Shown: piece after piece, positions 3,845 through 19,600 of the stretch
Layout: the number at the start of each line of letters is the position of its first letter
How positions within the stretch are numbered: position 1 is the stretch's first letter
Origin: Fodinibius sp. Rm-B-1B1-1
GTDB lineage: Bacteria > Bacteroidota > Rhodothermia > Balneolales > Balneolaceae
Reading direction: 5' to 3'
NCBI RefSeq assembly: GCF_038594945.1
Contig: NZ_JBCFYD010000002.1
Location: 558,001 to 622,000 of the forward strand
Length of the DNA: 64,000 bases
Program-made: the position numbers and the translations under genes
The notes under the pieces: generated by a model
Told to the model about the DNA's origin: nothing
The model's database searches: none
Seen by the model: only the letters and a program-made list of their open reading frames with translations

Positions 3845-3927
3845 TTTATTTCTCTTTGATTAATTGGTAGCCAACTCTATTAAATATATTTCAAAATGGA
3901 CTGTTGGGTGCAAAATGCCAAACCGAC

Positions 3928-4056
3928 AGCTAACGACATTGCGCATAACCGGCGTGCAAAGTGATGTTAATTACTTGAATAATGAACGGAGAGCTTAAAA
4001 GCCAAAATTCTGGGAAGTAATGGCGAGGCACGTCCGAGTTAATGCGCGGGTTAGGT
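3928..4056 (-). repeat. attC site 6
   Basis: Core sites AGCTAAC (3928-3934) and GTTAGGT (4050-4056), 129 bp, with arms ATTGCGCATAA and TTAATGCGCGG. Loop of the AATAATGAACGGA type shared with attC7, 9 and 15. Confidence 0.92.
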
Positions 4057-4058
4057 AA

Positions 4059-5258: not shown

Positions 5259-5273
5259 AAGATTTATTTAGTT

Positions 5274-5402
5274 ACCTAACGACCTGGCGCATAACCGGCG
5301 TGCAAAATGATGTTGATTAACTAAATAATGAACGGAAAGATAAAAAGCCAAAAATGTGGTAAGTGATGGAGAGGCACGTCCGAGTTAATGCGCGGGTTAT
5401 AT
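5274..5402 (-). repeat. attC site 7
   Basis: Core sites ACCTAAC (5274-5280) and GTTATAT (5396-5402), 129 bp, with arms CTGGCGCATAA and TTAATGCGCGG. Loop close to that of attC6. Confidence 0.92.
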
Positions 5403-5470
5403 CGCAAAACATATAAAAAGTAGGACCACTTAAATCCAGCAATTGATATTTAAATCGATTCTAATGGTTT

Positions 5471-5499
5471 TTGACAATATTAAAGTATATGCTTGTTTA
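5471..5499 (+). promoter_or_regulatory. Candidate promoter for the plus-strand lipoprotein gene
   Basis: TTGACA at 5471-5476 is followed after 17 bases by TGTTTA, about 105 bases before the ATG at 5604. The gene faces against the array and cannot use the integron's common promoter, so it needs its own. The -10 match is poor. Confidence 0.25.
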
Positions 5500-5603
5500 A
5501 ATAATTGGAGGGGGGGATTAAAAATACCCAATGTTAATCATTCATTGTTGCCAAGAGTTTACCACAATAGCTTATAGTATAAACTTCTACTAAAACAGCC
5601 GCT

Positions 5604-7268
5604 ATGAAAATTTTTCATATTACACTCCTTATTTCTTGCATGATGCTAATCTTTGGCTGTAAAAAGAGTGGTGTTTCGGGTTCAGATCCAACAAATCCTT
5701 CTGAAGAACCCATAGAAATTGAAGAAGATGTAGTTGCTCAAAACAAAAATGTAAATACATTTGAGATTACCTCTTTGCTAGTCAACACAGACTTTGACGA
5801 TAAATATACGGCTACGTTTGCAGGCTCTGAAGTAGAACTTATCAAGACTTCTGATTCCACGCTTACTTTCATAGTACCTAACGTCGAAAGTGGTACTCAA
5901 AGTCTAGGTTTTGAATTAGGCGAAATTGACTACGAGGTTAATCAAATCGTAGTTTCTAACCCTGAGGAGACAGTTTCGGATGCATTTGTAGGAATCGATG
6001 ATGAGCTATCGAGTCTATCATCTGATACTCTGATTGATCAACAGGAAGTGGAGAATACGAAAAAATTAAAGAGTGAAGTTCAAGAGCTTTATAACTCATT
6101 GACAAGTGAACAGAAAGAGGAAGTGGCTTTATTTTATGAAGCTAATAAAGATCTTTTTAGAAACTTTAATCAGAATGTTTCTAAAACCTATAACAAATTT
6201 TCACGTAAATCCTTAGCAAACTCTGACTGTCCCAAAACTAATTATAAAACTTATTATCCTTGTACAGCAAGCAATTTGGGCGACTCCTTCAATGAATTGG
6301 GGAAAAGTTTGGCAAAAACTGGTGAATGGGTTGGTTATGGTACAGCAGCGGCATATCTAGGTTCACAAGTTTGGTATGCTGGACCGACTTCATGGGGACT
6401 TACAGCTATTGGGAGCACATTATCGTTTGGTACTGCTGCATATTTATTAATCACTGAAGTGCGTCCCGCAGTTCTTAAGTTGAAACATAATCTTGTAGAT
6501 TTTCTTGAAGCAAATTGGATTTTTGTAAAAGCTATTTTCTTAGTCGTAACCGAAGAATATCCGAATGAAACCGAAACCGATATGGGGATTGATGGCAAAT
6601 TTAGAACTATTCAGTCCTCAGACAGTGAAATAACTGAAGAAACCGAATTCTTTATCGTCTCATACGATCAACTACGCTCAAATTGGAATGATTTTACTGA
6701 GTTGCTTGGAAAACTACCGACCTTTGAGTCGGATGAAGAAGCAGTCGAATTGGAAACCGGTGACATCACCATATCCAATATTTCAAATTCTAACGTAAAT
6801 CTTGTGTCTCAAAATGGGGAGAAAGTTAAATTTGAATCGACTACAGGAGCGGAAGAAGAGTTTAGCTTTGATATTACCGTGAATAAAGAAGGGTTTATCA
6901 GATCCACAAATGTGAAAGCTAAAATTACTGAGAGGGATTTTGATCTGAAGGGCCAATGGTATTTTATCTGGTATAACGTGGACGGTTCAATATCACAGAC
7001 CGAATTAATCGACTTTGGTGACGGAGGAACAGGGGAACACCTTGGTTATAACATTCCTAGCAACGATAATATATGCCATTCTGGTTGGCACGACTATTCC
7101 CAAAGTTTTAATGGGACCCAATCTTATGTTCGCTTAGATTGGTATGGGCTATATGCCTATTATATCTATGACCCAGACAACCCAGGCCGTCTGGAAGTTG
7201 TGGAGGGATCAGGCAATGTATCCAAGCGCACTGCTCTACAAAAGAATAATCCAGGCTCACCTTGCTAA
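5604..7268 (+). CDS. Large secreted lipoprotein on the opposite strand, cassette gene
   Basis: A 554-residue protein with a lipoprotein signal peptide (hydrophobic residues 5-17, lipobox LIFG-C19) and an acidic serine/glutamate linker. Residues 50-115 form a beta region (ITSLLVNTDFDDKYTATFAG). A helical middle contains a glycine/alanine-rich hydrophobic stretch at about 240-290, and the C-terminal part is strand-rich with tryptophans and several cysteines. It should sit in the outer membrane or periplasm. It reads against the array and occupies a cassette of about 2.2 kb, the largest here. I do not recognise the family. About 170 bases after its stop comes a different type of attC (site 8). 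Confidence 0.8.
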   Translation: MKIFHITLLISCMMLIFGCKKSGVSGSDPTNPSEEPIEIEEDVVAQNKNVNTFEITSLLVNTDFDDKYTATFAGSEVELIKTSDSTLTFIVPNVESGTQSLGFELGEIDYEVNQIVVSNPEETVSDAFVGIDDELSSLSSDTLIDQQEVENTKKLKSEVQELYNSLTSEQKEEVALFYEANKDLFRNFNQNVSKTYNKFSRKSLANSDCPKTNYKTYYPCTASNLGDSFNELGKSLAKTGEWVGYGTAAAYLGSQVWYAGPTSWGLTAIGSTLSFGTAAYLLITEVRPAVLKLKHNLVDFLEANWIFVKAIFLVVTEEYPNETETDMGIDGKFRTIQSSDSEITEETEFFIVSYDQLRSNWNDFTELLGKLPTFESDEEAVELETGDITISNISNSNVNLVSQNGEKVKFESTTGAEEEFSFDITVNKEGFIRSTNVKAKITERDFDLKGQWYFIWYNVDGSISQTELIDFGDGGTGEHLGYNIPSNDNICHSGWHDYSQSFNGTQSYVRLDWYGLYAYYIYDPDNPGRLEVVEGSGNVSKRTALQKNNPGSPC

Positions 7269-7440
7269 AATTAAAATGGCCTTTGTGATTTGCCAGGCTT
7301 AACTACGTTTTTAAAGTGTGTGTTGCTTTCCATACTTCATGCAGGTTTGCTGATTTTTTGCTTACCATATTTATCGTTGGTTACTGTTTCTAAATAAAAG
7401 TTTCGCATCATTTCAATACAGAAAAGTCCTCAGTTTTGCG

Positions 7441-7516
7441 GTATAACGGCACAGGGCTAACAAACTTTAAGTGAGGTTAAAAACGCAATATCGTCCGCTT
7501 GAAGCCCTTGTTATGC
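7441..7516 (-). repeat. attC site 8, short and of a different family
   Basis: Core sites GTATAAC (7441-7447) and GTTATGC (7510-7516) enclose only 76 bp. The inner arms are AGGGCTAAC and GAAGCCCTTG, not the GCGCATAA/TTAATGCGC arms of all other sites. Length and arm sequence resemble the short 59-base-element type found in other bacteria, so this cassette probably came from another integron lineage. Confidence 0.75.
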
Positions 7517-7537
7517 CTTAAAAATTTGTGATTAAGC

Positions 7538-8137
7538 TTACAGACTTCGGTTCGCCTGAATAATCATAACAGATTCATTCCAGCTCTGCCCTCCATCTGT
7601 TGATATGTCGACGCTCCAGATAAAATGGTTCTCGGTAATGTCAGAAAACGATATTCTATGAAGTTCTCCAGGTTTATATTCAGCTTTGTATACAATTGTT
7701 GTATCGGTGATTTGAACACCCCCGAGTTCTTGAGTCCCCAAATCCAACCACGTTCCAGATAAAGCTTCAAGCCATTTCATATTCCAGACATCAGTTTCTG
7801 TATTGTAGGCTCGGTAATTCATTCCCAGCATCACCAGACTTCCTTCTGAGTCCATCATCTGATATTCATCCGCAATTACGTATCCATCAAGAATGGTTTG
7901 CCCCTTCCAGGTTGCACGAAGTTCAGACGTGGTTCCATCTTCCTGTTTGGCTATAACCTTGCAGTTCCACTTACCAAGGAGGAAACCAAAAGCTGAAAGC
8001 TGTTTTGGAGCATTTGGATTAAGTTGTTCCATTCCGAAGGTATTCTTCGCTTTTTCCTGGTTCTGTGCATATCCAAGATTGACTGATATCACAGAAACGC
8101 TAACAAGAAAGATAATGATTAAAAAACGTGACTTCAT
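7538..8137 (-). CDS. Secreted DUF1579-like protein, cassette gene
   Basis: I chose ATG 8137, which gives a clean signal peptide (MKSRFLIIIFLVSVSVISV...YAQ); an earlier ATG at 8155 adds six residues. The mature part starts with FGFLLGKWNCKV and continues with WKGQTILDGYVIADEYQ, NYRAYNTETDVWNMKW and a final FIWSVDISTDGGQSW, the beta-barrel pattern of DUF1579 and related lipocalin-like proteins that measure or bind small ligands. Reaction unknown. It is the only gene in a cassette closed by the short foreign-looking attC8, so it was probably acquired from outside this lineage. Confidence 0.7.
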   Translation of the reverse strand: MKSRFLIIIFLVSVSVISVNLGYAQNQEKAKNTFGMEQLNPNAPKQLSAFGFLLGKWNCKVIAKQEDGTTSELRATWKGQTILDGYVIADEYQMMDSEGSLVMLGMNYRAYNTETDVWNMKWLEALSGTWLDLGTQELGGVQITDTTIVYKAEYKPGELHRISFSDITENHFIWSVDISTDGGQSWNESVMIIQANRSL

Positions 8138-8165
8138 GAGAAGTATATCCATCACAATTTTTAAG

Positions 8166-8293
8166 GTATAACGACATTGCGCATAAGGTGCGCACGTAAA
8201 ATTATTGATTTGTTAAATAATGAACGGAAAGCTAAAAAGCCAGAAAGTTGGCAAGACCTGGCGAGGTGCGTCCCCTTAATGCGCGGGTTATAC
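8166..8293 (-). repeat. attC site 9
   Basis: Core sites GTATAAC (8166-8172) and GTTATAC (8287-8293), 128 bp, with arms ATTGCGCATAAGG and CTTAATGCGCGG. Loop of the AATAATGAACGGA type. Confidence 0.92.
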
Positions 8294-8295
8294 TG

Positions 8296-9084
8296 CTATG
8301 CTTCTTTAGATTTTCTGATCATTGATTTGATACTCGCTACTTCTTCTGAATATTTTGAGGGTAAATTTTCAAGTAATTTCATTAATACAGGCTCAAAAGC
8401 AGGACCACTATCAATCCCTTTTTTATAGAGTTCTCGTATACCCTGTAAGGCGTAGGAAATTTCAGTCTCGTCATTTAATTCAATAGCTAATTTTAAAATT
8501 TGTCTGTATAAGGACATCTCATTTTGTTCAACTTCTTTTAATTCCCAATATCTTCTTTCAGCTTTATAAGATTCGAGCTTCCTCTGTTTGTTTAATCTTT
8601 TCAAATACTCAATGCTATTATTTAAGCTTTTTACCTTTTGTTTAAGAGTTTCAGATTCTTCTTTTATTGTTTCTTCGGCATGATTTCTAATGTTTTCTCT
8701 AAACTCTTTTACATTTTCACTTATATTATTTGAAACTTCAGAAAAACGATTGTTCAGACTGGATTCCAATTCTTGGGATTCTTGATTCAACAAAGATTTT
8801 AATTCATTTCTTAGAGCTTTTTTATCTCTTTCGTAAACTTTGAAATTACTAAACCATCCAAAACCTACTAATAAGCCTGCAATAGTTACTAAAACTCCCA
8901 GTGACCAATAAACTGTATCAGTTATTTCATCTAAATATTTTTGTGTGGTTTCTAACTCTTTTTCAAGAACTTGAATTTTTTGTGCCTGAAAATTCTCAGC
9001 TACTTTCGTTGAATCACTTGATTGGGAATAAATTAAATTTGTGTTTAAAAAAAGTAGGAGCAAAAAGAGTAGAATTGATCTCAT
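8296..9084 (-). CDS. Membrane protein with long coiled coil, cassette gene
   Basis: A 262-residue protein. A signal peptide (MRSILLFLLLLFLNTNLIYS) is followed by a short heptad region, one membrane segment at about 58-77 (VYWSLGVLVTIAGLLVGFGW), and then a long charged coiled coil at about 85-170. The C-terminal 80 residues look helical with a TPR-like character (LYRQILKLAIELNDETEISYAL). The coiled coil and repeat probably face the cytoplasm. I do not recognise the family. It starts at ATG 9084 and ends 2 bases before attC9. Confidence 0.75.
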   Translation of the reverse strand: MRSILLFLLLLFLNTNLIYSQSSDSTKVAENFQAQKIQVLEKELETTQKYLDEITDTVYWSLGVLVTIAGLLVGFGWFSNFKVYERDKKALRNELKSLLNQESQELESSLNNRFSEVSNNISENVKEFRENIRNHAEETIKEESETLKQKVKSLNNSIEYLKRLNKQRKLESYKAERRYWELKEVEQNEMSLYRQILKLAIELNDETEISYALQGIRELYKKGIDSGPAFEPVLMKLLENLPSKYSEEVASIKSMIRKSKEA

Positions 9085-9108
9085 AATTAGATGAATTGGG
9101 TTTTAGCA

Positions 9109-9237
9109 GTATAACGACATTGCGCTTAAGGAGCGCGCGAAAGCTTTGTTGATTGCTAAATAACGAACGAAGAGTTGAAAAACCAAAAAGCTGGCAAAGA
9201 ATAGGCGAGGCGCGTCCCCTTAAAGCGCGGGTTATAC
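9109..9237 (-). repeat. attC site 10
   Basis: Core sites GTATAAC (9109-9115) and GTTATAC (9231-9237), 129 bp, with arms ATTGCGCTTAAGGAGCGCG and CGCGTCCCCTTAAAGCGCGG. The two arms carry matching changes from the usual ATAA/TTAAT, so the stem is preserved by compensating bases. Confidence 0.9.
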
Positions 9238-9358
9238 CGCTTTTATGATTTAGAAACAGCTATTTATTTTGGCTTTATTGAAATTTTCACGTTAAAAGAA
9301 GCAACAAAAACTTAAGCCAAAGTTGGAGATAAGTTCGTGGTAATATGCGTTGTTATAC
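9238..9358 (-). repeat. Possible degenerate attC next to attC10
   Basis: A 115-base gap separates attC10 from the DUF2306 gene. It ends in TGCGTTGTTATAC, a good right core overlapping the gene's stop codon, and contains TTTGGCTT...AAGCCAAA as an internal stem. No left core (RYYTAAC) is visible. This looks like an attC that lost one end. Confidence 0.4.
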
Positions 9359-9838
9359 CGCACTTTCTGAGGTTTGAGATGCTTGATAACGTTCGAGAAT
9401 TTGGGTCTTTTTTCTGAATATTAGTGCAGAACCAATAACGAGTGGGACACCCCAGTATAGCAGAATGCGTGCCCAGAAGGGCCATCCAGATGGACCATAT
9501 CGGGATAAGTGTGAGCCAGTCGCCATTAACAGACCGATATAGGAGTATAAGATCCAAAAGTAATGATGTTCTATCCATCCTTCATAGTGTTCTCTACGAA
9601 GCGGGAAGTAAATGGCGAGCCCGAGGGTAACCGTGCTTACAATTGACATGATGTGAAAGGGGCCGAAGCCGCCAAACATCTCGTAGATGCCAAACGAGGT
9701 GAGAAGGAGCATAGTAAACGAGCCAATATAGATCCATCCGACGAGGCGGTGTTGTTGTGTTCCTTTCTGGCTAACTAAATTCCAGGCACCTGTGATGATA
9801 GCAATAACTCCACTGAGGGTGTGAATCGTAAGTATCAT
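9353..9838 (-). CDS. DUF2306-family membrane protein, cassette gene
   Basis: A 161-residue protein with four membrane segments (about 2-20, 38-56, 65-80, 96-112) plus a fifth near 125-141, and conserved histidines (HTLSGVIAIITG, H30 in QHRLVGWIYIG, FHIMS, EHHYFWILYSY). This is the DUF2306 pattern, related to heme-linked membrane redox proteins; no reaction is assigned. Base composition is more GC-rich than most neighbouring cassette genes, suggesting a different origin. The stop codon TAA lies inside a GTTATAC core-like sequence, as in several other cassettes here. The gene starts at ATG 9838. Confidence 0.75.
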   Translation of the reverse strand: MILTIHTLSGVIAIITGAWNLVSQKGTQQHRLVGWIYIGSFTMLLLTSFGIYEMFGGFGPFHIMSIVSTVTLGLAIYFPLRREHYEGWIEHHYFWILYSYIGLLMATGSHLSRYGPSGWPFWARILLYWGVPLVIGSALIFRKKTQILERYQASQTSESAV

Positions 9839-9913
9839 AATTTCAAGTTTTAGTTAGATTAATTGCCAAGATGGTATGATACGGCAAGAATGGCTTAAAG
9901 TTATGAATAAGCG

Positions 9914-10044
9914 GTATAACGACATTGCGCATAAGGGGCGTGCAAAATGACGTTGTATTTGTTTTAAAATGTACTACGGAAACTAATCAAATCGAAACCG
10001 GCAGCCAACGGCGAGGCACGTCCCACTTAATGCGCGGGTTAGCA
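9914..10044 (-). repeat. attC site 11
   Basis: Core sites GTATAAC (9914-9920) and GTTAGCA (10038-10044), 131 bp, with arms ATTGCGCATAAGGGGCGTGC and GGCACGTCCCACTTAATGCGCGG. The loop differs from the three common loop types. Confidence 0.92.
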
Positions 10045-10048
10045 GTAT

Positions 10049-11110
10049 TTATTCTTTGCGTATTTTCTTTATAAATATTTTTGGTGACCAACCTTTTGAT
10101 ATTTTATCTATGATCAATTCATCAAAGGCTTGATAACTTAAACCTGTTATTATTGCAGTTTGCGGTTCAACGAAAGATAATCCAATTGTTAATGCAGAGT
10201 TAATTGCAAATCTCACTGGTTTACTAAATGGTGTTTCATATAATGGGTGGAAAACTTCCTTGGAATACTCTTTGATTACACCTATTTCATCTTCATTCTG
10301 GATGTTGAATAACCAATCTCTAAATTTTTCTGCTTCTTTGTTTTCTCGAATTTTGACTATTTCTTCAAACGAAATTTGTCCATCCAGTAATAATGCTTGA
10401 AGACTTGGCATATCTTCATATTCCAAGATCGTTTGAAAAGGTTTAGTAGTTAACTTGGAATAGTCAATTATTGAATCGAAATAAGTATTCAGATTATCAA
10501 GAAACCTATCTGCAGCAATTACAAGCTCACAATCTAATTGAGAAGAGAGACCGGCTAGATACATTGCGTTAGCAAAGTCCAGGTATTTTGACTCTGATTT
10601 ATCATATGTTTCCAGTAATTGGTTTCCTTTGCGAGAAGCTTTTTTGCCAATTTCAAAACAATCGAGGTCTTTGTTATTGGCATCAACCAAAGTTGCTAAT
10701 CGACCAATGTCGTAGTCGCTTAATTCTGTTTGCTCTTTTAAGATTGAATAAGTGCCATCATAAACTGATTCAAAGTGACTTCCAACTCCTTGGAAAGCCA
10801 TAAATCCGGGATTGGCATTCAATAAGGCAGCCGTATCCTTATTGGCATATCCAACTGTTGTATTACTATGAAAAAAAGAGATACTTCCTTTATGAATTAG
10901 TTCTTCTAATAAATCTTGGCCTAACCAATTAAGTAAAACTACAAGGTTTAAATTAGGTCCAAAATTATTAACATAAATTTGGTCAGAAAGGAGCAGACTT
11001 TCCGCAAACGTAGATTTCAGAGCAATCTCTTCATTTTGGGATATTCGTTTCCCTCCGTCATGTCTTGGAATAGTAGCTTTAGAAATTTTGTCAAAAAGTA
11101 CTTTTGCCAT
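10049..11110 (-). CDS. Hypothetical protein, 353 residues, cassette gene
   Basis: A mostly helical soluble protein without a signal peptide. Visible landmarks are an N-terminal region with RHDGGKRISQNEE, a possible ligand-binding stretch near residues 75-105, and a C-terminal hydrophobic region (about 310-340, INSALTIGLSFVEPQTAIITG) ending in a basic tail (WSPKIFIKKIRKE). The C-terminus could touch or cross the membrane once. I do not recognise the family. It starts at ATG 11110 and ends 4 bases before attC11, so it is the sole gene of its cassette. AT-rich codon use matches most other cassettes. Confidence 0.75.
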   Translation of the reverse strand: MAKVLFDKISKATIPRHDGGKRISQNEEIALKSTFAESLLLSDQIYVNNFGPNLNLVVLLNWLGQDLLEELIHKGSISFFHSNTTVGYANKDTAALLNANPGFMAFQGVGSHFESVYDGTYSILKEQTELSDYDIGRLATLVDANNKDLDCFEIGKKASRKGNQLLETYDKSESKYLDFANAMYLAGLSSQLDCELVIAADRFLDNLNTYFDSIIDYSKLTTKPFQTILEYEDMPSLQALLLDGQISFEEIVKIRENKEAEKFRDWLFNIQNEDEIGVIKEYSKEVFHPLYETPFSKPVRFAINSALTIGLSFVEPQTAIITGLSYQAFDELIIDKISKGWSPKIFIKKIRKE

Positions 11111-11127
11111 ATCAATTTAATTAATAC

Positions 11128-11255
11128 TGCTAACGCCTCCGCGCATAACCGGCGCAGAGTCTGTGGTTTCTTTAAAGGCTAGGAATTTGAACACTCACAA
11201 GCAACTGCTTTGACCGAAGCCGCGGCTGCGTCCGCCGTTGATGCGCTGGTTATGC
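11128..11255 (-). repeat. attC site 12, divergent arms
   Basis: Core sites TGCTAAC (11128-11134) and GTTATGC (11249-11255), 128 bp. Arms are CCTCCGCGCATAACCGGCGC and GCGTCCGCCGTTGATGCGCTGG, and the loop (GAACACTCACAAGCAACTGC) is unlike the others. It is related to the local family but the most divergent of the full-length sites. Confidence 0.85.
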
Positions 11256-11918
11256 GGCCGGATTAAGTTTTTGAGAGTTCTTTTTCATATTACGGTATAG
11301 TAATAATCCAATACTGAGAATTCCCGAAACAAGCAAGCCAGTATCTTCAACAATGCCTAGTTGAAAGGCTGCCGTAAATCCAATCACTGACCAAAGACCA
11401 GGTATAAGAAGAAACCACCAAGGGATTTGCTGGTTAGTCCATAAAAGTAACCCAAACGTAAAGATGGTAGCCGGACAGGGTGTAACACCAAACATTGGTG
11501 AAAATGGATAAGAATGACCTAAAAGGGAGCCAATGATAGGATAAATGACCATGGCATAAGCAATGAGTATGATTCCAGTGATACCAAAAGTATTAGCGTT
11601 AAAGTGATATTGGATTTTATCAGTAAACAGCCCAATTTCCAAGAATAATAAGCCCTGAATTATGAATAAGGTACCAAAACCAAAAGCGGCATTGTTGATT
11701 TCACTAAAAAATAGAATGTGATAGACAACACCGATCCAAAGCCAAAAAAACCCTAAAATAGAATTAATAATTTTATCAGAAGCTGGCGATTTCCAAAAGG
11801 AACAAATTACGGCAACAATCCCGAATAGGTAAGCGATCAACTGGGATGGCCAGATAGCATTGTTGTAAACTTGAAAAACATTAAGAAACTGTTCTGTAGT
11901 AAAAGGTAGTTCCATCAT
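11250..11918 (-). CDS. DUF6064-like multi-pass membrane protein, cassette gene
   Basis: A 222-residue protein starting MMELPFTTEQFLNVFQVYN, which I recognise as the usual opening of DUF6064 proteins, followed by six or seven hydrophobic segments and a short basic tail. The segment PMFGVTPCPATIFTFGLLLW carries a conserved-looking cysteine. Members are small inner-membrane proteins of unknown function. The stop codon overlaps the attC12 core. As attC12 is also the most divergent full-length site, this cassette may have a different source from its neighbours. Family assignment is from memory of the N-terminal pattern. Confidence 0.65.
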   Translation of the reverse strand: MMELPFTTEQFLNVFQVYNNAIWPSQLIAYLFGIVAVICSFWKSPASDKIINSILGFFWLWIGVVYHILFFSEINNAAFGFGTLFIIQGLLFLEIGLFTDKIQYHFNANTFGITGIILIAYAMVIYPIIGSLLGHSYPFSPMFGVTPCPATIFTFGLLLWTNQQIPWWFLLIPGLWSVIGFTAAFQLGIVEDTGLLVSGILSIGLLLYRNMKKNSQKLNPAA

Positions 11919-12011
11919 AATGAATTTTTTATCCTCTAGTAATAGATTAAAAAAGATGGAACAGAAAAGGAATAATAAAGTTATGAAAGTTGATTCTCCA
12001 AGAAAGAGGCC

Positions 12012-12138
12012 GGATAACGACCTTGCGCATAAGCTGCACGCGATGAAATGTTAAATTAGCAACTAACGAAAGACGAGACTTAAAACCAAGAGGGGCAAAG
12101 AATTGGCGAGGCGTGTCCGCTTAATGCGCGGGTTAGGC
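12012..12138 (-). repeat. attC site 13
   Basis: Core sites GGATAAC (12012-12018) and GTTAGGC (12132-12138), 127 bp, with arms TTGCGCATAAGCTG and CTTAATGCGCGG. Loop of the AACTAACGAAAGA type. Confidence 0.92.
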
Positions 12139-12155
12139 GTTTTGATAAACCTTGA

Positions 12156-12902
12156 TTAAAAGATCCATCTTGTTCCATGCCTTTTAACATTTTGGATAGT
12201 ATAAGGTGTACCAGTAGTTAAAAGGTGTTCATTTATTGCATCACCTTTATATTTAAAAATAAGCTTTTCTATAATTGCATTTTCTTTAAGATTAGGAATA
12301 ATTGATGGTAGATCCTCGTGTAATTTAAAGACTATAAATAAAGGTGTTCTTAATCTTTGCTTAAACTCTTCTTCACCAGTATTAAAGAAATCCAGAAACT
12401 CTTCTGATTCTACAAAATCAGGTTTTAAATGGATTAATTCATTTCTAATGTCCTGTAGTTTATTTAGATCATTCCATAATCTTTGATCTGTTTCGTCTGG
12501 ACTTTCACTTAATCTTGTTAAATCAAAAGTGTGATAGAGTATATTTAGCTTTTTAGTAAGTTTTTCATACCGAAATAATTCATTCCGTGAATCTTCAGAG
12601 TCATATTTACTTTTCAGATTAGAAAAGTTTTCAGCTAATTTATTCCTTAACTCTTGATCATTAATTTTTTGCAGTTTAATTCTGTCTTTAAAAATATCGG
12701 AGAGGCTATGATTAATATTAGCTTCTAGATATGAAATGCTAAAAATTACAGAGCCTGAGAATTGTATAAATTTTAGATTTGCTTTAACCGGTATTGGAAT
12801 ATCTTCTATACCATTTAGATTTTTATCTTTTTCCAATTCGACATCAATATCTAACAACGCTCTTGACATTTCTAAATACATTGATGAACCATTTAAAAAC
12901 AT
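12156..12902 (-). CDS. HEPN-like protein with RNELIH motif, cassette gene
   Basis: A 248-residue, all-helical soluble protein. Residues 147-158 (NKLQDIRNELIH) carry R153 and H158 in the Rx4-6H arrangement that forms the active site of HEPN ribonucleases. The preceding region (FSGSVIFSISYLEANINHSLSDIF) fits the first HEPN helices. HEPN nucleases occur as toxins and as antiphage effectors that cut cellular RNA. There is no antitoxin-like gene in this cassette. It starts at ATG 12902 and ends 17 bases before attC13. The RNase function is an inference from one motif. Confidence 0.6.
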   Translation of the reverse strand: MFLNGSSMYLEMSRALLDIDVELEKDKNLNGIEDIPIPVKANLKFIQFSGSVIFSISYLEANINHSLSDIFKDRIKLQKINDQELRNKLAENFSNLKSKYDSEDSRNELFRYEKLTKKLNILYHTFDLTRLSESPDETDQRLWNDLNKLQDIRNELIHLKPDFVESEEFLDFFNTGEEEFKQRLRTPLFIVFKLHEDLPSIIPNLKENAIIEKLIFKYKGDAINEHLLTTGTPYTIQNVKRHGTRWIF

Positions 12903-12927
12903 ATGACTGTGATTTTATATTGAAAAC

Positions 12928-13187
12928 GCCTAACGACATTGCGCATAAGGTGCGTGGTTACGAATTAGAATCAAGTTAAAAACTACAGCCGAAAACACAA
13001 GCAAAAGGGAGCGATCCAAAAAGCAATGGCCGCGACCATTTTGAAGAAGCCAGCAAAAAAATTACGAAGAGAGACTGACCGTTGCTGCTAAACTTTTGAA
13101 AAGCAATTAACTAAAAAATTGGCAAAAAGAGCGACCAATTTTGGGAAAGCCCAGGCGAGCCACGTCCGTTTAATGCGCGGGTTAGGC
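12928..13187 (-). repeat. attC site 14, unusually long (260 bp)
   Basis: Core sites GCCTAAC (12928-12934) and GTTAGGC (13181-13187), with arms ATTGCGCATAAGGTGCGTGG and CCACGTCCGTTTAATGCGCGG. The loop is about 130 bases longer than usual and contains small inverted repeats (AATGG/CCATT near 13025-13041 and AAAATTGG/CCAATTTT near 13114-13142), but no long reading frame of its own. Confidence 0.88.
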
Positions 13188-13403
13188 ATTTTCTTGTTCG
13201 TTAGTCTGAAAGAGGGAAATATTTTTGCCCAAAAATTCAATGAGCATTATACCACCAAATGCAAAAAAACTCATGATCAATATTTCCACGAAAAAGCTTG
13301 TCCAATAATTTTGGAATAGGTCAGAAAAATCAAATAACAATTGATAGATAATTATTCCAATGAAAGGTCCGAAACAATTTCTGACAAACTTCTTGTCCTT
13401 CAT
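13182..13403 (-). CDS. Small two-pass membrane protein, cassette gene
   Basis: A 73-residue protein. I start it at ATG 13403, since the upstream in-frame codon at 13415 is a TTG. Two hydrophobic segments (about residues 8-24 and 33-56) flank a short polar loop, and the tail is polar. The TAA stop is inside the attC14 core. The family is unknown. Small hydrophobic cassette proteins of this kind are common in integron arrays, and no function can be read from the sequence. Confidence 0.6.
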   Translation of the reverse strand: MKDKKFVRNCFGPFIGIIIYQLLFDFSDLFQNYWTSFFVEILIMSFFAFGGIMLIEFLGKNISLFQTNEQENA

Positions 13404-13449
13404 AGATGATTGCAAATTTTATATAAAAAAGTTCATTATTTACAAAAAA

Positions 13450-13575
13450 GCCTAACGACATTGCGCATAAGGTGCGCACGGAATACGTTGAGTTGATAAA
13501 TAATGAACGGAGAGCTAAAAAGCCAAAAGTTGGCAAGACCAGGCGAGGTGCGTCCCCTTAATGCGCGGGTTATAC
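13450..13575 (-). repeat. attC site 15
   Basis: Core sites GCCTAAC (13450-13456) and GTTATAC (13569-13575), 126 bp, with arms ATTGCGCATAAGGTGCGCAC and GGTGCGTCCCCTTAATGCGCGG. Loop of the AATAATGAACGGA type. Confidence 0.92.
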
Positions 13576-14058
13576 AGCAACTTTACGGTGGTTTATTAGT
13601 GGATTTATTAGGAGCCTAGAAATTAAAATTCCAACCCATGCAGCAATTAAAACCCAACTTGACAACTCAAAGCCTCTTCTCCAAAATGGTCCTAAACTTC
13701 CTGTTGGCATTACTGTCGAAATAAAAACTGTGATGACCAATGGAAGAGATAAAACAAATGTTGAGATGGCGTTTTCTACTTTAGTCTTATCACTTAGCCA
13801 AAATTTGCCTTTAAATGTTAGATAAATGATAAAAATAAGCGAGTAAGGAATAGAGAACAGAAAAGCTATAAATCCACCAAAATATAAAGCACCAATAGCC
13901 GTGCTTTTACTGTGGTTTATTATTTCAGTGAGTGACTCTCCTAATGTTAATGGGTGAATGATGGTTAGGAGTAGGATCCAGCAAGCTGTTCCAATTACAG
14001 CAGCTAATACTGACCAAGCAATAGAAACTCCAACTGTGGATATTATTGATTTCATCAT
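13570..14058 (-). CDS. Four-pass membrane protein, cassette gene
   Basis: A 162-residue protein with four hydrophobic segments (about 7-33, 55-80, 97-116, 132-152) and short polar loops. It starts MMKSIISTVG; the second ATG at 14055 is an equally likely start. The stop codon TAA is part of the attC15 core. No charged residues lie inside the membrane segments and no motif is recognised, so a transport or enzymatic role cannot be assigned. It is the only gene in its cassette. Confidence 0.75.
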   Translation of the reverse strand: MMKSIISTVGVSIAWSVLAAVIGTACWILLLTIIHPLTLGESLTEIINHSKSTAIGALYFGGFIAFLFSIPYSLIFIIYLTFKGKFWLSDKTKVENAISTFVLSLPLVITVFISTVMPTGSLGPFWRRGFELSSWVLIAAWVGILISRLLINPLINHRKVAV

Positions 14059-14071
14059 TTTGGGTGTTGCT

Positions 14072-14199
14072 GTATAACGACCTTGCGCATAACCTGCGCA
14101 CGGACTGCTGTTTATTTTGTAACTAACGAAAGAAGAGCCTTAAAACCAAGAGGGGCAAAGAATTGGCGAGGTGCGTCCGCGTTAATGCGCGGGTTAGCT
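14072..14199 (-). repeat. attC site 16
   Basis: Core sites GTATAAC (14072-14078) and GTTAGCT (14193-14199), 128 bp, with arms TTGCGCATAACCTGCGCAC and GGTGCGTCCGCGTTAATGCGCGG. Loop of the AACTAACGAAAGAAGAG type, nearly identical to attC3. Confidence 0.92.
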
Positions 14200-14212
14200 G
14201 GCCCTTATTATT

Positions 14213-14767
14213 TTAAGGTTTAAAAAAAGTAAAAGTATTTTCTTCTTGAGAATAATGAGTATAAAAATTTCTTACACGATATTGATTAACCACCTTTGTT
14301 CTTAACTGAAAATTTTCAAGCAATTCTCTTTGTATAGTTGGAATATTTGGTCCTTTCTTCAATGGAGCCTCGACATCTTTAATATATTTTCCCTGAATCA
14401 AATAAGTATCTTGGGAAGATAGAGGACTAAATTCTAATGGATGGAAAAAACGAAAGTGGCCTTCTAAAGTATCAAGTACCTCCAACTCTATGTCATAGGC
14501 ATCTACTTCAGAATTATTAAGTACTTCGATTTCAAAGTTAATTTCATAATGATATCGATGGATTAAATCTTCTGCATTTGGAGTGTCATCACTATCAATT
14601 GGATAATTAACTTCTTCTTTTATTCTCTTTTTCCCAGTTAATTTTTTTACTTCAATATTGATTCTGGGACGCCTTAAAAATTTGTATTTAAAAAATCCTA
14701 TTGCTGTACCTAAGAATAAAAGTACAGTTATTGTTAGTTCAATATTTCCAGTAATAGTATTTAGCAT
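14213..14767 (-). CDS. Membrane-anchored beta-rich hypothetical protein, cassette gene
   Basis: A 184-residue protein with one N-terminal membrane segment (about residues 8-26), a basic stretch (KYKFLRRPR), and a long strand-rich domain (INFEIEVLNNSEVDAYDIEL resembles an immunoglobulin-like fold). The layout, a short anchor plus cytoplasmic beta domain, resembles that of the protein at 2076-2570, although the sequences do not look homologous. It starts at ATG 14767 and ends 13 bases before attC16. Unknown function. Confidence 0.75.
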   Translation of the reverse strand: MLNTITGNIELTITVLLFLGTAIGFFKYKFLRRPRINIEVKKLTGKKRIKEEVNYPIDSDDTPNAEDLIHRYHYEINFEIEVLNNSEVDAYDIELEVLDTLEGHFRFFHPLEFSPLSSQDTYLIQGKYIKDVEAPLKKGPNIPTIQRELLENFQLRTKVVNQYRVRNFYTHYSQEENTFTFFKP

Positions 14768-14789
14768 GTATTGGATTTTAATTTAGGCC

Positions 14790-14919
14790 AGCTAACGACC
14801 TTGCGCATAACCGGCAGGCGCCGGAATATTGATTTAATTGTAAAACGAAAGATTAACTAATAAATGAAAGGGAGGCAAGGAGATGGCGAGGCCTGTCCGA
14901 GTTAATGCGCGGGTTATAC
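14790..14919 (-). repeat. attC site 17
   Basis: Core sites AGCTAAC (14790-14796) and GTTATAC (14913-14919), 130 bp, with arms TTGCGCATAACCGGCAGGCG and GAGGCCTGTCCGAGTTAATG. Loop nearly identical to attC1 and attC18. Confidence 0.92.
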
Positions 14920-14926
14920 TTCAATT

Positions 14927-15484
14927 CTAATGTGCCATTGATTTAGGCAGTTCTTTTTCAAATTGTTTCAGTACATCTCTAAACAGTTTCGCTTCCTCTT
15001 GGTTGGCAATGGTTTGTAACTCGGTATCAAAGTGTTCATTGAATTTACCAAGAGAATAGGTGCCAATTATTTCAGCGCCCCAAAAAGGCATAAGATCTGA
15101 TAGAATCGATAGATTTGTTGCACCACCGTTATCCCCGGGAGAGGCACTAAGTAACAGAACGGGACTATTCATAAAGATTTCTTGATCTATACGTGTTAAC
15201 CAGTCAATGATATTTTTAAAGAATGCAGGCAAAAGGCCATTATGTTCTGGGGAAGCCACTATAAACCCTTCAGCTTTTGTCATTTTCTGGTATAAATGCT
15301 TAATGGGTGTTGGGATACCTTCTTGTTTTTCTATCTCCTTGCCATACATCGGAATATCCATCTTCTTGAGATCAATATATTCCACATTTTCATCAGTTAA
15401 ATTGTTTATTGCTGCTTTTGTGAGTTCCTCATTAATTGATTGTGGACTATTGCTTCCTACAAATGCGATAATGTGATTTTTCAT
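14927..15484 (-). CDS. NADPH-dependent FMN reductase, cassette gene
   Basis: A 185-residue flavodoxin-like protein. The N-terminal strand and FMN phosphate loop read AFVGSNSPQSINEELTKAA, and the second motif SPEHNGLLPAFFKNIIDW is the flavin-contacting loop of the NADPH-dependent FMN reductase family (PF03358; azoreductase and chromate reductase relatives). These enzymes reduce FMN, quinones or azo compounds in the cytoplasm. It lies 82 bases downstream of a Crp-like gene in the same cassette and orientation, so the regulator may control it. It starts at ATG 15484 and ends 7 bases before attC17. Confidence 0.88.
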   Translation of the reverse strand: MKNHIIAFVGSNSPQSINEELTKAAINNLTDENVEYIDLKKMDIPMYGKEIEKQEGIPTPIKHLYQKMTKAEGFIVASPEHNGLLPAFFKNIIDWLTRIDQEIFMNSPVLLLSASPGDNGGATNLSILSDLMPFWGAEIIGTYSLGKFNEHFDTELQTIANQEEAKLFRDVLKQFEKELPKSMAH

Positions 15485-15566
15485 AGTGCTGTTGGGTTTG
15501 TTCTAATTTATTACAGCACTAACGTGTCAAGAAGTTGCAAGAAAAGACTTAAGGTATCTTAAGAAA

Positions 15567-16163
15567 TCATGAATTTGTTATTTCATTGCGAATGGAACTG
15601 AGAAACTCTGGGGTTATTCCCAAGTATGATGCAACCATATACTGTGGCACCCGTTGCTCAATGTTGGGGTAAGACTCTCGGAAATCCAGATACCGCTGTT
15701 TGGCAGGCTTACTCATGCTATGAATTGTTCGATCCTGCAATGCGACATAGGCATGTTGAATCTTAATGCGAAAAAATCGTTCTAAGGAGGGAATCTGTTT
15801 GTAAATTTGCTCTAATGAATTTCGTTCAATTTGAAGTATGGAACTGTCTTCAATAGCTTGAATGAAGTATTTAGCTGGGGTTTGTGTTAGATAGCTATAT
15901 AAATCATTAATCCACCACCCTTCAATGCCAAACTGCAATATTTGTTCATCACCATCCCCGTCAATATGGTAGCATTTCAAGCAGCCATCCGTTATAAACC
16001 GCATATGTCTTGAAACGTCGCCTTTAAATAAAAGGATTTCGTTCTTTTGTAGTTCTTTCACTTCAAAATGCTCCTGAATGACCGAACGGTCAGAATCCTC
16101 CAGTGGAACAATTTCCTCAATATGATTGAACAGTTGCTTGATAGCTCTAATATTTGAATTGAA
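15567..16163 (-). CDS. Crp/Fnr-family regulator lacking a standard start codon, cassette gene
   Basis: Homology-like sequence begins well upstream of the first possible conventional start, GTG at 16061: the same frame reads NSNIRAIKQLFNHIEEIVPL up to the attC18 core at 16164, with no ATG. The 16061 start would cut off the first cyclic-nucleotide-fold strands. The body has the cNMP-binding fold (GDVSRHMRFITDGCLKCYH) and a C-terminal helix-turn-helix (VASYLGITPEFLSSIRNE). Either translation starts at a rare codon such as ATT 16151, or cassette formation removed the native start. It is followed by an FMN reductase gene in the same cassette. Confidence 0.75.
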   Translation of the reverse strand, partial: FNSNIRAIKQLFNHIEEIVPLEDSDRSVIQEHFEVKELQKNEILLFKGDVSRHMRFITDGCLKCYHIDGDGDEQILQFGIEGWWINDLYSYLTQTPAKYFIQAIEDSSILQIERNSLEQIYKQIPSLERFFRIKIQHAYVALQDRTIHSMSKPAKQRYLDFRESYPNIEQRVPQYMVASYLGITPEFLSSIRNEITNS

Positions 16164-16293
16164 GTATAACGACCTTGCGCATAACCGGCAGGCGCCGGAG
16201 CGTTGAATAAGTTTTAAAACGATAGATTAACCAATAACTGGAAGGGAGGCAAGGAGATGGCGAGGCCTGTCCGCGTTAATGCGCGGGTTAGGT
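16164..16293 (-). repeat. attC site 18
   Basis: Core sites GTATAAC (16164-16170) and GTTAGGT (16287-16293), 130 bp, with arms TTGCGCATAACCGGCAGGCG and GAGGCCTGTCCGCGTTAATG. Loop AAAACGATAGATTAAC, almost the same as in attC1. Confidence 0.92.
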
Positions 16294-16296
16294 GGC

Positions 16297-16545
16297 TTAA
16301 TTTGAGATAGAAGCTATGAACTGTAGTATAAAACCAAGAATTAGTATTCCTAAACCAAATTGTTCATAACGTAGATTGCGAATTGGTTTGCTTAGCCCTT
16401 CATCCCAAGTTATACCTTTTTTTAGTACAGCTTTGTCACCTTCTTTTTTCCAAGAAAGATTTCCCCAAAAAAGTAAACTAGCTCCCAATATATCTAAAAT
16501 TAATCCGAAGCTTGTCAAAGTTATATTGATTCCCAAAAAAGCCAT
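16297..16545 (-). CDS. Small two-pass membrane protein, cassette gene
   Basis: An 82-residue protein with hydrophobic segments at about 8-30 and 62-80 and a positively charged loop between them (SWKKEGDKAVLKKG). It lies 15 bases downstream of the zinc-binding gene at 16561-16821 and in the same orientation, so the two form a two-gene cassette. It ends 4 bases before attC18. I do not recognise the family. Confidence 0.65.
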   Translation of the reverse strand: MAFLGINITLTSFGLILDILGASLLFWGNLSWKKEGDKAVLKKGITWDEGLSKPIRNLRYEQFGLGILILGFILQFIASISN

Positions 16546-16560
16546 AATAAAGAATTTTTG

Positions 16561-16821
16561 TTATTCAGGATAGAGTGGATAAACTTTGCCAATTTCAGGC
16601 TTTTTGGGTGCATCGGGATGTTTTTCTCTATAATCCTCCCAAGCCCAACCATCAGTTACGGTACTTCCATTACAACCTTCATAATGGCACATTTGAAACT
16701 CTTCTCCATCTTTTTCAACTACTCTATAGTCATCTTCTTCATAAGCGCGTTCACAATGTAAACACCATAAGAACCCGCTTTCAGTCTTTCCAAACGCTTC
16801 AGAACGATGATTTTTTGACAT
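16561..16821 (-). CDS. Small putative zinc-binding protein, cassette gene
   Basis: An 86-residue hydrophilic protein. Cysteine and histidine pairs CLHC (about residues 20-23) and CHYEGC (about 44-49) are spaced as in small treble-clef or ribbon zinc fingers, followed by a conserved-looking tail (DGWAWEDYREKHPD). No catalytic motif is visible. It is the first gene of a two-gene cassette with a small membrane protein. It starts at ATG 16821, about 50 bases after the end of attC19. The function is unknown; RNA, DNA or protein binding are all possible. Confidence 0.7.
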   Translation of the reverse strand: MSKNHRSEAFGKTESGFLWCLHCERAYEEDDYRVVEKDGEEFQMCHYEGCNGSTVTDGWAWEDYREKHPDAPKKPEIGKVYPLYPE

Positions 16822-16869
16822 ATATAATTGGTTAATTTTAATATTTCTAGTTTATCGTTTTACGAAGCC

Positions 16870-16997
16870 ACCTAACGACCTTGCGCATAAGCTGCGTGCG
16901 CCAACGTGTTGAAATTGTTTACAGATGAAAGGGTAACTATAAAAAGAGAGGTTGGCAAAAATTGGCGAGGCACGTCCCCTTAATGCGCGGGTTAGGT
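16870..16997 (-). repeat. attC site 19
   Basis: Core sites ACCTAAC (16870-16876) and GTTAGGT (16991-16997), 128 bp, with arms TTGCGCATAAGCTGCGTGCG and GGCACGTCCCCTTAATGCGC. Confidence 0.92.
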
Positions 16998-17001
16998 AAA
17001 C

Positions 17002-17811
17002 TTACCCAAGAAGCTTAAAATTTAGATTGACTAGTAATTCTGATAATTCAATTTCTTCTTTTTTACAGAATTCAAAAAGTTGGATTGGTATGTCCCAGTC
17101 ATTAAAATCCTTTATTTCAACTTCTGGCTTTTCATCCATGTTCAAGTAATAATCTGTAGTCAAATCATATTTTTCTAAAATTCTTATATGTTTTTTTAAT
17201 TTCTCCGCTCTTGTTTGTGTTACTTCCTCTAACTCTTCCGGATTTATAACATTATCGAAGAAATTTTTCTCGTGCCTTTCAATCATAATGGTATAAACTC
17301 TCCTTGAATTTTCAGGTACTTTACTTAAGACATCCAAATATTCTTGAATATCCTTTGCAGTTTCTTCAAGTTCATCTTCTTTTAGATTCCAACTGAGGCT
17401 TTTACTTATTTTTGAAAGTTTTGCAGGAGGGGCAACTTTAATCTCTTTTGTCTTATCTGTGATACTATTGAATATTTTATCAACTGCTGAAGTATATCTA
17501 TCCTCATGCTGATATTTTATCATTTTAAGACGACCAACAGGAAATTTTTCTACATCGTTAGTTTTTGTGTGATGTATTTGACACAATAGCATCAGGTTAT
17601 CAAAACTTCTTCTTTCTTCATTTGTTTGGTCAGGATTAAATCTTTCGCCACCAGGCATGGCAGCCTCAATATGACATACTTCTCCAACATAATCTCCATC
17701 TTCGTCCATGATTACATTTTGGCATTTCGGAAAGGCACATTGATTACCTGATTTAAGATATAATTCTCTCAGAGTGTCTTTTTCTGGGGTGAGCCTTTTT
17801 GGTTCTTCCAA
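17002..17811 (-). CDS. HNH endonuclease-like protein, cassette gene
   Basis: A 269-residue protein with an N-terminal HNH domain. GNQCAFPKC holds zinc ligands C25 and C30, EVCHIEAA holds C46 and candidate catalytic H47, and FDNLMLLCQIHH holds N72, C77 and H80/H81. The PGGERFNPDQTNEERRSFDN loop is typical of stand-alone HNH proteins linked to defence. The C-terminal half is helical and charged and may sense or bind a partner. The first codon is TTG at 17811; there is no in-frame ATG nearer the cassette start. It is the only gene in the second cassette from attI. DNA cleavage is inferred from the motif. Confidence 0.8.
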   Translation of the reverse strand: MEEPKRLTPEKDTLRELYLKSGNQCAFPKCQNVIMDEDGDYVGEVCHIEAAMPGGERFNPDQTNEERRSFDNLMLLCQIHHTKTNDVEKFPVGRLKMIKYQHEDRYTSAVDKIFNSITDKTKEIKVAPPAKLSKISKSLSWNLKEDELEETAKDIQEYLDVLSKVPENSRRVYTIMIERHEKNFFDNVINPEELEEVTQTRAEKLKKHIRILEKYDLTTDYYLNMDEKPEVEIKDFNDWDIPIQLFEFCKKEEIELSELLVNLNFKLLG

Positions 17812-17845
17812 TCTGGAATGAAAATTTAGATTACAATTTAAGTTT

Positions 17846-18204
17846 ACCTAACGACGGAGCGCATAAGCTGTAAAACAAACCGATAACATAAATAGATGAG
17901 GAAATATTATGAGTACAAGCAAAAGTGAGCGCGATGAACCGACTAAGGAAAATATGAGAGATCTAATTATTCAATTGTGCAAGGATTTAAACCAAGCGCA
18001 TGATGAGATAATGGAATTACAAGATGCTGAACCGCAAAATTATGACTGGCCTACATGGACACCACAGGCAAATTCTTTGCGGTGGGCAGAACGTATGTTT
18101 GACATGCGGTTAACGAAGTTAAAACAAGCAAGTGAAAATCCAGAGCGCGAACAATATGCGGAAGGTTAAGGCGAGTTTTATCCGCTTAATGCGCATGGTT
18201 AGGT
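17846..18204 (-). repeat. attC site 20, 359 bp, with an ORF in its loop
   Basis: Core sites ACCTAAC (17846-17852) and GTTAGGT (18198-18204). The stem is intact: GCGCATAAGCTGTAAAAC at the low end pairs with GTTTTATCCGCTTAATGCGC at the high end. The loop is about 230 bases longer than usual and is filled by the reading frame 17909-18169. It is the attC of the first cassette in the array. Confidence 0.85.
17909..18169 (+). CDS. Hypothetical protein encoded inside the attC20 loop
   Basis: An 86-codon plus-strand frame lying wholly between the two arms of attC20. It starts with ATG 17909 behind GATGAGGAAATATT (a clear GAGGA ribosome site, uncommon in this window) and ends in TAA at the point where the conserved GGCGAG arm resumes. 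The product is acidic and helical with a tryptophan-rich middle (NYDWPTWTPQANSLRW). Codon use and composition look like real protein. I do not recognise the family. It faces the integrase and against the array. Its exact fit inside the hairpin loop is very unusual. Confidence 0.6.
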   Translation: MSTSKSERDEPTKENMRDLIIQLCKDLNQAHDEIMELQDAEPQNYDWPTWTPQANSLRWAERMFDMRLTKLKQASENPEREQYAEG

Positions 18205-18640: not shown

Positions 18641-19600
18641 ATGTCTGATAAATCTTTATTGAGTCGGATGAGATCAGAAATTCGACGGAGAAATTATAGT
18701 TATCGAACGGAGCAGGCTTATACTACTTGGGTTGTCCGGTTTGTCAAGTTCCATGATTTATGTCATCCCAATGAAATGAACGAAAAGGAGGTGATTGAAT
18801 ATCTCAATTATTTGGCAGAAGAACGCAATGTTGCGGCTTCAACACAAAATCAGGCGTTATGTGCTATCCTTTTTCTTTATGAACATGTCCTTAAAGATCC
18901 TATAGAGGAAATGATGGATTTTAAACGGGCAGAAACACCTAAAAAGTTACCTGTCGTGTTAACATCTGATGAGGTAAAGCAAGTTTTAAATCTGTTGGAT
19001 GGTACCCCAAAACTTGTCGCTGAATTACTTTATGGGGCGGGACTTCGCATATCGGAATGCCTTAGACTTAGGGTGTTGGATCTTGACTTTAGTTATAATC
19101 AGATTCAAGTAAGATCCGGAAAGGGGAAGAAAGACCGAATTACGATTATGCCACAGACAACCAAGAAGAAGCTGAAAGACCAGGTTCAGAAAGTTAAGAT
19201 GATTCATAAAAAGGATACAGCTGCAGGTTATGAAGAAACCCTGCTGCCTAAAGCTTTATCGAAAAAATATCCCAACGCTTCTAAACAGTTGAAATGGCAT
19301 TATCTTTTTCCCTCTCCAAAACGGGCAAAAGATCCGAGATCGGGATTAGTTCATCGCCATCATATCTCGGACTCGACTATCCAGAGAAAAGTGAAGCAGG
19401 CGGTGAAGAAGAGTGGAATCAAAAAACATGCAACCTGTCACACACTTCGCCATAGCTTTGCTACACATCTGTTGGAGGATGGATATGACATCCGAACAGT
19501 CCAGGAGCTACTGGGCCATAAAAATGTAAACACGACCATGATTTACACCCATGTCATTAAAAATAAAGGTAGTATTGTCAAAAGCCCCATCGACAGCTAA
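18641..19600 (+). CDS. intI: Integron integrase (tyrosine recombinase)
   Basis: A 319-residue tyrosine recombinase. The N-terminal SAM-like core-binding domain occupies about 1-95. Catalytic residues are R136 (GAGLRISE), H267 and R270 ([12 protein letters not shown]), H293 (LLGHKN) and nucleophile Y302 (MIYTH). An extra segment at about 202-225 ([20 protein letters not shown]) is the IntI-specific patch absent from XerC/D and needed to bind folded single-stranded attC. It catalyses attI x attC and attC x attC recombination. It is divergent from the array, starts at ATG 18641, is slightly shorter than IntI1, and appears intact. bioB follows after 64 bases, convergent. Confidence 0.97.

Follow-up and report, generated by a model that had tools for sequence, protein, structure and literature searches.

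The cassette and its place in the array

We have analysed a stretch of 64,000 nucleotides from Fodinibius sp. Rm-B-1B1-1 (the window, G000:C2:558001-622000, where G000 is the source genome and C2 the contig). The left part of the window is a sedentary integron, recognised by attC ends and an integrase gene; the minus strand carries 33 recognised attC ends, reaching back to about G000:C2:543 kb. The third recognised cassette counted from the integrase gene is 1374 bp long and contains two genes, one for a Crp-like regulator and one for an FMN reductase-like protein (Table 1). It has what defines an integron gene cassette, namely attC flanks with matching R'/R'' ends and an adjoining integron integrase gene, and its own ends are complementary (TTATAC at the start, GTATAAC at R''). 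Cassettes are usually seen as promoterless single genes whose expression is driven by the integron.

Table 1. Features of the cassette and its surroundings (window coordinates)
Feature	Position	Strand	Basis or remark
Two-gene integron cassette (crp-like gene, FMN reductase gene, own attC)	14796..16169	-	attC 3' ends, R'' sites
attC of this cassette	14796..14919	-	R'' GTATAAC 14919-14913
NADPH-dependent FMN reductase-like gene, ATG start	14927..15484	-	PF03358 FMN_red, 105.1 bits (cut-off 24)
Inverted repeat TAGTGCTGT...ACAGCACTA, extending to the first base of the ATG of the FMN reductase gene	15484..15521	-	pairing, covariation
TTAG in the position of the -7 box, at a distance of 33 nt from the centre of the operator	15519..15522	-	TTTG in other Bacteroidota
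Palindromic putative operator CTTAAGATACCTTAAG, just after the crp stop codon	15548..15563	-	palindrome and relatives
Crp-like regulator, if translated from codon 5 (ATC 16142-16140)	15567..16142	-	open frame starts 16226
GTG codon 32, first conventional start; not where relatives start	16059..16061	-	frame reading and relatives' starts
CTG codon 8, identical in three species, second candidate start	16131..16133	-	low context score; codon-like substitutions from about here
ATC codon 5 (ATA in both relatives), best-scoring near-cognate candidate start	16140..16142	-	upstream-context score
ATT codon 2, family start position; ACT / AAT in two close relatives	16149..16151	-	alignment
First 18 nt of the cassette (recombination arm and 5' leader)	16152..16169	-	differs at 1 and 3 sites from the copies of G012 and F. 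halophilus
attC of the preceding cassette (attC18); the open crp frame runs into it	16170..16293	-	
Integron integrase gene	18641..19600	+	TIGR02249, 454.1 bits (cut-off 265)

The two proteins and their relatives

The regulator matches Pfam cNMP_binding (PF00027) with 53 bits (cut-off 27.5). Its best match among solved structures is 3dn7_A, a cyclic nucleotide binding regulatory protein of the Crp/Fnr superfamily (E 1.5e-44, 184 of 191 residues aligned), in a comparison of the proteins. Pfam gives no match to a helix-turn-helix in the regulator, yet the 3dn7 alignment reaches near the C-terminus. Both curated NCBIfam cut-offs are missed (17.9 bits of 266 for CRP, 34.9 of 228 for FNR). The protein is a member of the Crp/Fnr superfamily and, by these cut-offs, neither CRP nor FNR. 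The FMN reductase does not reach the SsuE and MsuE equivalog cut-offs.

For comparison we used 111 loci, made up of the best 80 of 111 relatives together with loci from earlier searches, after dropping duplicates (L035, L084 and L079, which equal L007, L009 and L008). Among the matches listed, 28 loci are FMN-linked, that is, they have an FMN reductase gene downstream (25 of them outside Fodinibius), and 83 are not; L019, in which a weak match to FMN reductase (33%) precedes the crp gene, was excluded from the first group. In the 25 FMN-linked loci outside Fodinibius, among the matches listed, the FMN reductase gene follows the regulator gene in the same orientation; in L066 other genes intervene (two frames, the second DoxX-like by eye). 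A CxxC redox sensor was considered and rejected: among the matches listed Cys58 is kept in 23 of the 28 FMN-linked loci and the second cysteine (Cys61) in 5. Conserved cysteines lend no support to the redox-responsive unit of the original prediction.

A regulator frame without a conventional start

We number codons from AAT 16154-16152 (codon 1, minus strand). The crp-like frame reads without interruption from 16226 as far as its stop codon at 15569-15567, and its first ATG, GTG or TTG is the GTG at codon 32. As the original prediction had it, no conventional start precedes this GTG, and the N-terminus encoded upstream of it (NHIEEIVPL) is real, being kept in relatives. The frame was also said to run back to the core of attC18; it does reach and cross the core (G16170/T16169), but it ends 19 codons further into the attC, where it is closed by TAA 16229-16227. 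By sequence this is a gene with a probable non-canonical start, in the sense that no ATG, GTG or TTG occurs before a region conserved as in-frame coding sequence. A gene finder restricted to these three codons would begin at GTG16061 and lose the conserved N-terminus.

Alignment with homologues located the native start. Among the matches listed, 23 of the 25 FMN-linked relatives outside Fodinibius have a start aligned exactly with codon 2 (ATG in 12, TTG in 9, GTG in 2) and in the remaining two an ATG precedes that position by one or two codons. Since the relatives' starts align with codon 2, the family start position is inside the cassette and has not been cut off. The proposal that the cassette was cut just inside the native start thus falls: the native position lies 18 nt inside the cassette and is merely not a normal start. 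Nor do homologues begin at GTG16061, the case that would have told against an upstream N-terminus; all 25 FMN-linked relatives outside Fodinibius, among the matches listed, start between -5 and 2. These start positions, together with purifying selection upstream of it, speak against a start at this GTG. Translation from a fused upstream frame, also proposed, is not supported either: the upstream gene stops at 16297, the frame is closed at 16229 and F. halophilus has an in-frame TAA five codons ahead of codon 2.

Weak starts are frequent in FMN-linked regulators. Among the matches listed, GTG or TTG is the start in 11 of the 25 regulators outside Fodinibius and in 1 of their 25 FMN reductase genes (Fisher p 0.002), although many of these loci are close kin, which lowers the effective number. 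Nine of the 83 other Crp homologues among the matches listed have no ATG near the start (GTG or TTG in eight, none in one). Around position 3000 of L088 (a groundwater MAG, 47%, not FMN-linked), a Crp homologue without a conventional start has TAA followed directly by ATT ATC CAA; this missing start could be a sequence error.

Close copies and selection on the N-terminus

In the family (92 genomes) and the order (128 genomes), the only orthologues of close grade are those of G012 (84%) and F. halophilus (82%). Past E 1e-60 the 128 genomes of the order yield only the three copies and one 48% relative; outside the order the best relative among the matches listed has 63%, and no relative was confirmed in viral contigs. 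The FMN reductase gene travels with the regulator, as predicted, and is present in both close relatives. A search with attC patterns over 19.5 kb and 12 kb around these copies revealed no array, and by eye the flanks of both resemble decayed attC sites; in F. halophilus the flank behind the FMN reductase gene covers 346 nt, up to the end of the contig.

At codon 2 the two relatives read ACT and AAT, and the first ATG, GTG or TTG is at codon 42 (TTG) in G012 and codon 51 (ATG) in F. halophilus. For codons 8-50 the three pairs of copies give dN/dS values of 0.09, 0.06 and 0.14 (dS 1.6, 2.2 and 0.65; NG86), and for codons 8-195 values of 0.07-0.11 (NG86). Codons 9-31 alone, with few sites, give 0.16 and 0.10, and 0.34 for the G012/F. 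halophilus pair. Counted by codon position, the variable sites number 7/2/13 in codons 8-31 and 3/2/3 in codons 1-7, where there is no coding pattern but codons are few. Purifying selection acts on codons 8-50 in each of the three pairs, so these codons are probably translated, and probably from a near-cognate codon. The missing start is more than chance, because two related species also lack one and selection acts at the codon level. The ancestral start was probably lost once, before the three Fodinibius copies diverged, with stable use of another codon since.

The dS of crp codons 8-195 (0.66-1.3) is below that of bioB, the one core gene compared (1.7 to saturated). The copies therefore look younger than the species, and the cassette has probably moved between species. 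Its first 18 nt show 1, 3 and 4 differences between the pairs, below the synonymous expectation (binomial 2e-5, 2e-4 and 0.05). In G012 the other end of the former cassette repeat has decayed (6 of 18 changed), a pattern that would fit preservation of the 5' end for expression and not for recombination; F. halophilus, with an unchanged 3' end (0 of 18) and three changes at the 5' end, opposes this.

Which codon starts the regulator

Three near-cognate codons are present in all copies: codon 5 (ATC/ATA/ATA), codon 8 (CTG) and codon 12 (ATT/ATC/ATT). Upstream context was scored with a matrix derived from 150 genes of this genome that start with ATG; a Shine-Dalgarno-like motif is present in 12 of these. 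Codon 5 tops the near-cognate codons scored in all three copies and beats 93% (window), 95% (G012) and 69% (F. halophilus) of these genes, whereas CTG8 lies above 7%, 11% and 29%. The matrix separates weakly (real starts have a mean of 1.97 and internal positions of -0.39, sd 2.4), so codon 5 is a preference and not proof; codon 3, which is not start-like, also scores high. The probability of being unpaired in the three species is 0.99, 0.64 and 0.70 for codon 5, 0.74, 0.58 and 0.89 for codon 2 and 0.49, 0.52 and 0.58 for codon 8; RNA accessibility is not decisive among these. Conservation of Leu codons was tried as a sign of CTG initiation and is uninformative (7 of 15 identical). From context and conservation, the likeliest start codons are AUC/AUA (codon 5) and CUG (codon 8). 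AUA and AUC are poor initiators. So is CUG, according to part of PMC11497404, and the portion of PMC5622118 used here describes start switches as very rare (2 to CUG and 1 to AUU among 61,358 ancestral AUG starts in close genomes).

Other ways of starting the protein have to be weighed against these two codons. The ATT at codon 2, as the original prediction allowed, might be used directly as an AUU start in this genome only, which would agree with the alignment of this codon with the start of 23 of the 25 FMN-linked relatives outside Fodinibius among the matches listed. AUU starts are known from infC and pcnB of E. coli. Such initiation could serve the window copy, but the close relatives have ACT and AAT there, two mismatches from AUG, with an N-terminus still under selection; the context score of ATT2 is also low (17th percentile), and we consider its use quite unlikely. 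It is very unlikely that only the downstream starts are used (GTG32 in the window, TTG42 in G012, ATG51 in F. halophilus), giving a shortened protein or marking a dying gene. These are the first conventional starts of the three copies and TTG42 has an ordinary context score (55th percentile), but those of GTG32 (19th) and ATG51 (5th) are low, three different truncation points would be needed, codons 8-50 have dN/dS values of 0.06-0.14, and the 25 FMN-linked relatives outside Fodinibius among the matches listed begin near codon 2. Finally, a leader frame from an ATG in the attC (16182; ATGCGCAAGGTCG..) ends at a UAG that overlaps codon 2 (TAG, cassette position 21), from which ribosomes might re-initiate. 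The likeness is to ORF-11 of attI1, which aids cassettes lacking initiation signals according to one part of a review (PMC8876359). Of 23 cassettes, however, 11 have a leader stop within 12 nt of the gene start, no clear excess over the 8 and 2 given by the two shifted frames, and by eye no such attC ATG lies just before the G012 and F. halophilus copies; re-initiation therefore has little probability. Initiation at codon 5 or codon 8 is the reading retained below.

Putative operator and promoter geometry

In relatives, as in the cassette, the palindrome of the putative operator lies directly behind the regulator stop codon or overlaps it. Among the matches listed it is found, with at most three mismatches, in 25 of 28 FMN-linked loci, a count that includes many close kin and does not represent independent events, and in 17 of the 83 loci that are not FMN-linked; among 2220 shuffled stretches there are 3. 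The consensus was derived from the FMN-linked loci, and the support from the other 17 is more independent. In its own genome the exact operator occurs only in this cassette; one more site has two mismatches, and a reversed control pattern gives two such hits. Judged by sites with at most two mismatches, the regulator may have a single target.

Among the matches listed, all 39 loci outside Fodinibius that carry the operator have a TTTG whose first base lies exactly 33 nt from the centre of the palindrome (again including many close kin, and not independent events); the next commonest TTTG offset is found in 3 loci, and the longer TAnnTTTG in 24 of the 39. All three Fodinibius loci have TTAG and not TTTG at offset 33. 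The classical position of a class II activator is -41.5. In Flavobacterium psychrophilum the -7 box TAnnTTTG is placed at -12 to -5 by the consulted part of PMC9723704, and combining this with the offset of 33 puts the operator centre at -41.5. By homology, class II activator geometry is thus predicted, with weaker support from the TTAG in Fodinibius itself. A scan for sigma-70 promoters found 4 against 5.2 expected.

It is unlikely that the regulator represses instead of activating, or that the operator belongs to another regulator. Sites of the Crp family near promoters may also repress, and binding of the operator is here a prediction; against this, the -41.5 spacing is constant in the 39 of 39 loci outside Fodinibius among the matches listed, and the operator adjoins the gene of this regulator despite several different cargo genes. 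We recognised no description of this regulator-operator-enzyme circuit in the open-licence papers searched, a set with subscription journals mostly outside it.

The 17 loci with other cargo (first frame of at least 90 codons) seem to carry genes for cyclase-family proteins (5), GNAT acetyltransferases (4), an MFS transporter (1) and secreted proteins without a Pfam family (7); one representative of each type was scanned and the others were assigned by eye. As judged from these loci, the gene behind the putative operator is swappable across Bacteroidota, beyond the integron. The predicted circuit of regulator and FMN reductase is an older Bacteroidota one and not an invention of the integron.

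A hairpin at the start codon of the FMN reductase gene

The arms of the inverted repeat have 92.4% of cells paired (84.2% in shuffles) and 12 cells changed on both sides (3.4 in shuffles). The covariation score is 0.470 against 0.294 shuffled and at most 0.175 for slid versions, with the caveats that a +2 slide also has 9 both-side cells and that the count of pairs so changed is reached by 31 of 500 shuffles. One comparison covered 27 of the 28 intergenic stretches (L066, with its FMN gene 1.1 kb away, was left out) and another 22 of the 28 (L066 and L037 were omitted, and so were L044, L045, L049 and L050, which in this stretch are identical to L048, L053, L055 and L061). L037 has no dyad at this place, which counts against the hairpin.

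In loci with other cargo the arms differ and pair better than swapped arms (6.27 against 5.00), although a strong stem is missing from 7 of 15 of them. This comparison used the start codon in 40 of 42 loci (not L041 and L042), and stem scores are unreliable for L049, L055, L058 and L060, where the start was taken too early, and L052, where it is uncertain. In Rfam the sole match was at chance level (E 0.41). The -7 box is partly contained in the left arm, so that the whole hairpin would be present only on read-through transcripts, which it may silence.

A probable control circuit carried by a cassette

We favour, with a probability of about 0.7, the interpretation that the cassette carries a self-contained circuit of regulator, operator and enzyme whose regulator is translated from a near-cognate codon. 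It would be drawn from a widespread Bacteroidota arrangement, with a regulator, an operator behind its stop codon and the promoter of the enzyme. The regulator would bind CTTAAGATACCTTAAG, centred at -41.5, and activate the FMN reductase gene as a class II activator, and expression of the enzyme would thereby be independent of the integron promoter. Following the presumed single loss of the ancestral start, translation would begin inside the cassette at AUC/AUA (codon 5) or CUG (codon 8). This near-cognate start should hold the level of the regulator low, presumably to some benefit.

A more extensive reading, which joins all these parts and is rather doubtful as a whole, is that of a Bacteroidota plug-in circuit whose regulator is deliberately throttled at initiation. 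It would combine the Crp-like regulator, the operator, the promoter at a fixed -41.5, the start-codon hairpin and a swappable cargo gene. Flavobacterial members would often use TTG or GTG, and the integron-borne Fodinibius branch a near-cognate codon gated by initiation factor 3. The cassette would bring its own switch into any array with no overproduction of the regulator, and the hairpin might silence read-through from the array promoter, leaving only the circuit's own promoter to make the enzyme.

Several known systems are comparable in part. The near-cognate initiation of infC and pcnB likewise occurs in natural genes; the candidates here (AUC/AUA or CUG) are predicted. Streptomyces sigR, in the section of PMC5472188 used here, has a GTC start repressed by IF3, which keeps the regulator low. 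The likeness is that of a regulator gene whose non-canonical start limits its level, but sigR encodes a sigma factor and its GTC, near a Shine-Dalgarno site, was proven by experiment. The crp-like gene has no conserved codon at the family start and no Shine-Dalgarno site, lies in an integron cassette and has a predicted start. The cmlA cassette, as covered by the same part of the review cited above (PMC8876359), also has its own promoter and a start-codon hairpin, while here the promoter is apparently driven by a regulator encoded in the same cassette.

The cassette seems to bring regulator, operator and promoter with it and could work at any position in an array. It also provides a natural case in which the normal start is absent in three species and the protein is conserved. 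Near-cognate initiation thereby becomes directly testable in bacteria that mostly lack Shine-Dalgarno sites.

Further observations on the array

Among open-licence papers (subscription journals being mostly outside this set) we found none on the integrons of Fodinibius or Balneola. The inverted repeat at cassette ends is usually of 6-7 nt. In this array (window positions 1-18200, G000:C2:543-576 kb) both ends of the cassettes are inverted repeats of approximately 12 nt. R'' was recognised in 29 of the 33 cassettes and, after one identical copy was dropped, 28 were compared. Positions 7-12 match in 82% of cases when both ends come from one cassette and in 30% when pairs are swapped, a difference reached by 0 of 10000 permutations; further in, at positions 13-18, own and swapped pairs are no longer distinct (39% and 34%). 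This extra stem differs from cassette to cassette and is complete only in the circular form.

The first recognised cassette (17851..16876; HNH-like by eye, with a TTG start) is identical over its 976 bp to an internal cassette (from G000:C2:555968 downward), a sign of recent cassette activity. Two attC-like sites distant from the main array, at G000:C2:1002329 and 1005307 on the plus strand, are possibly a small second cluster of cassettes.
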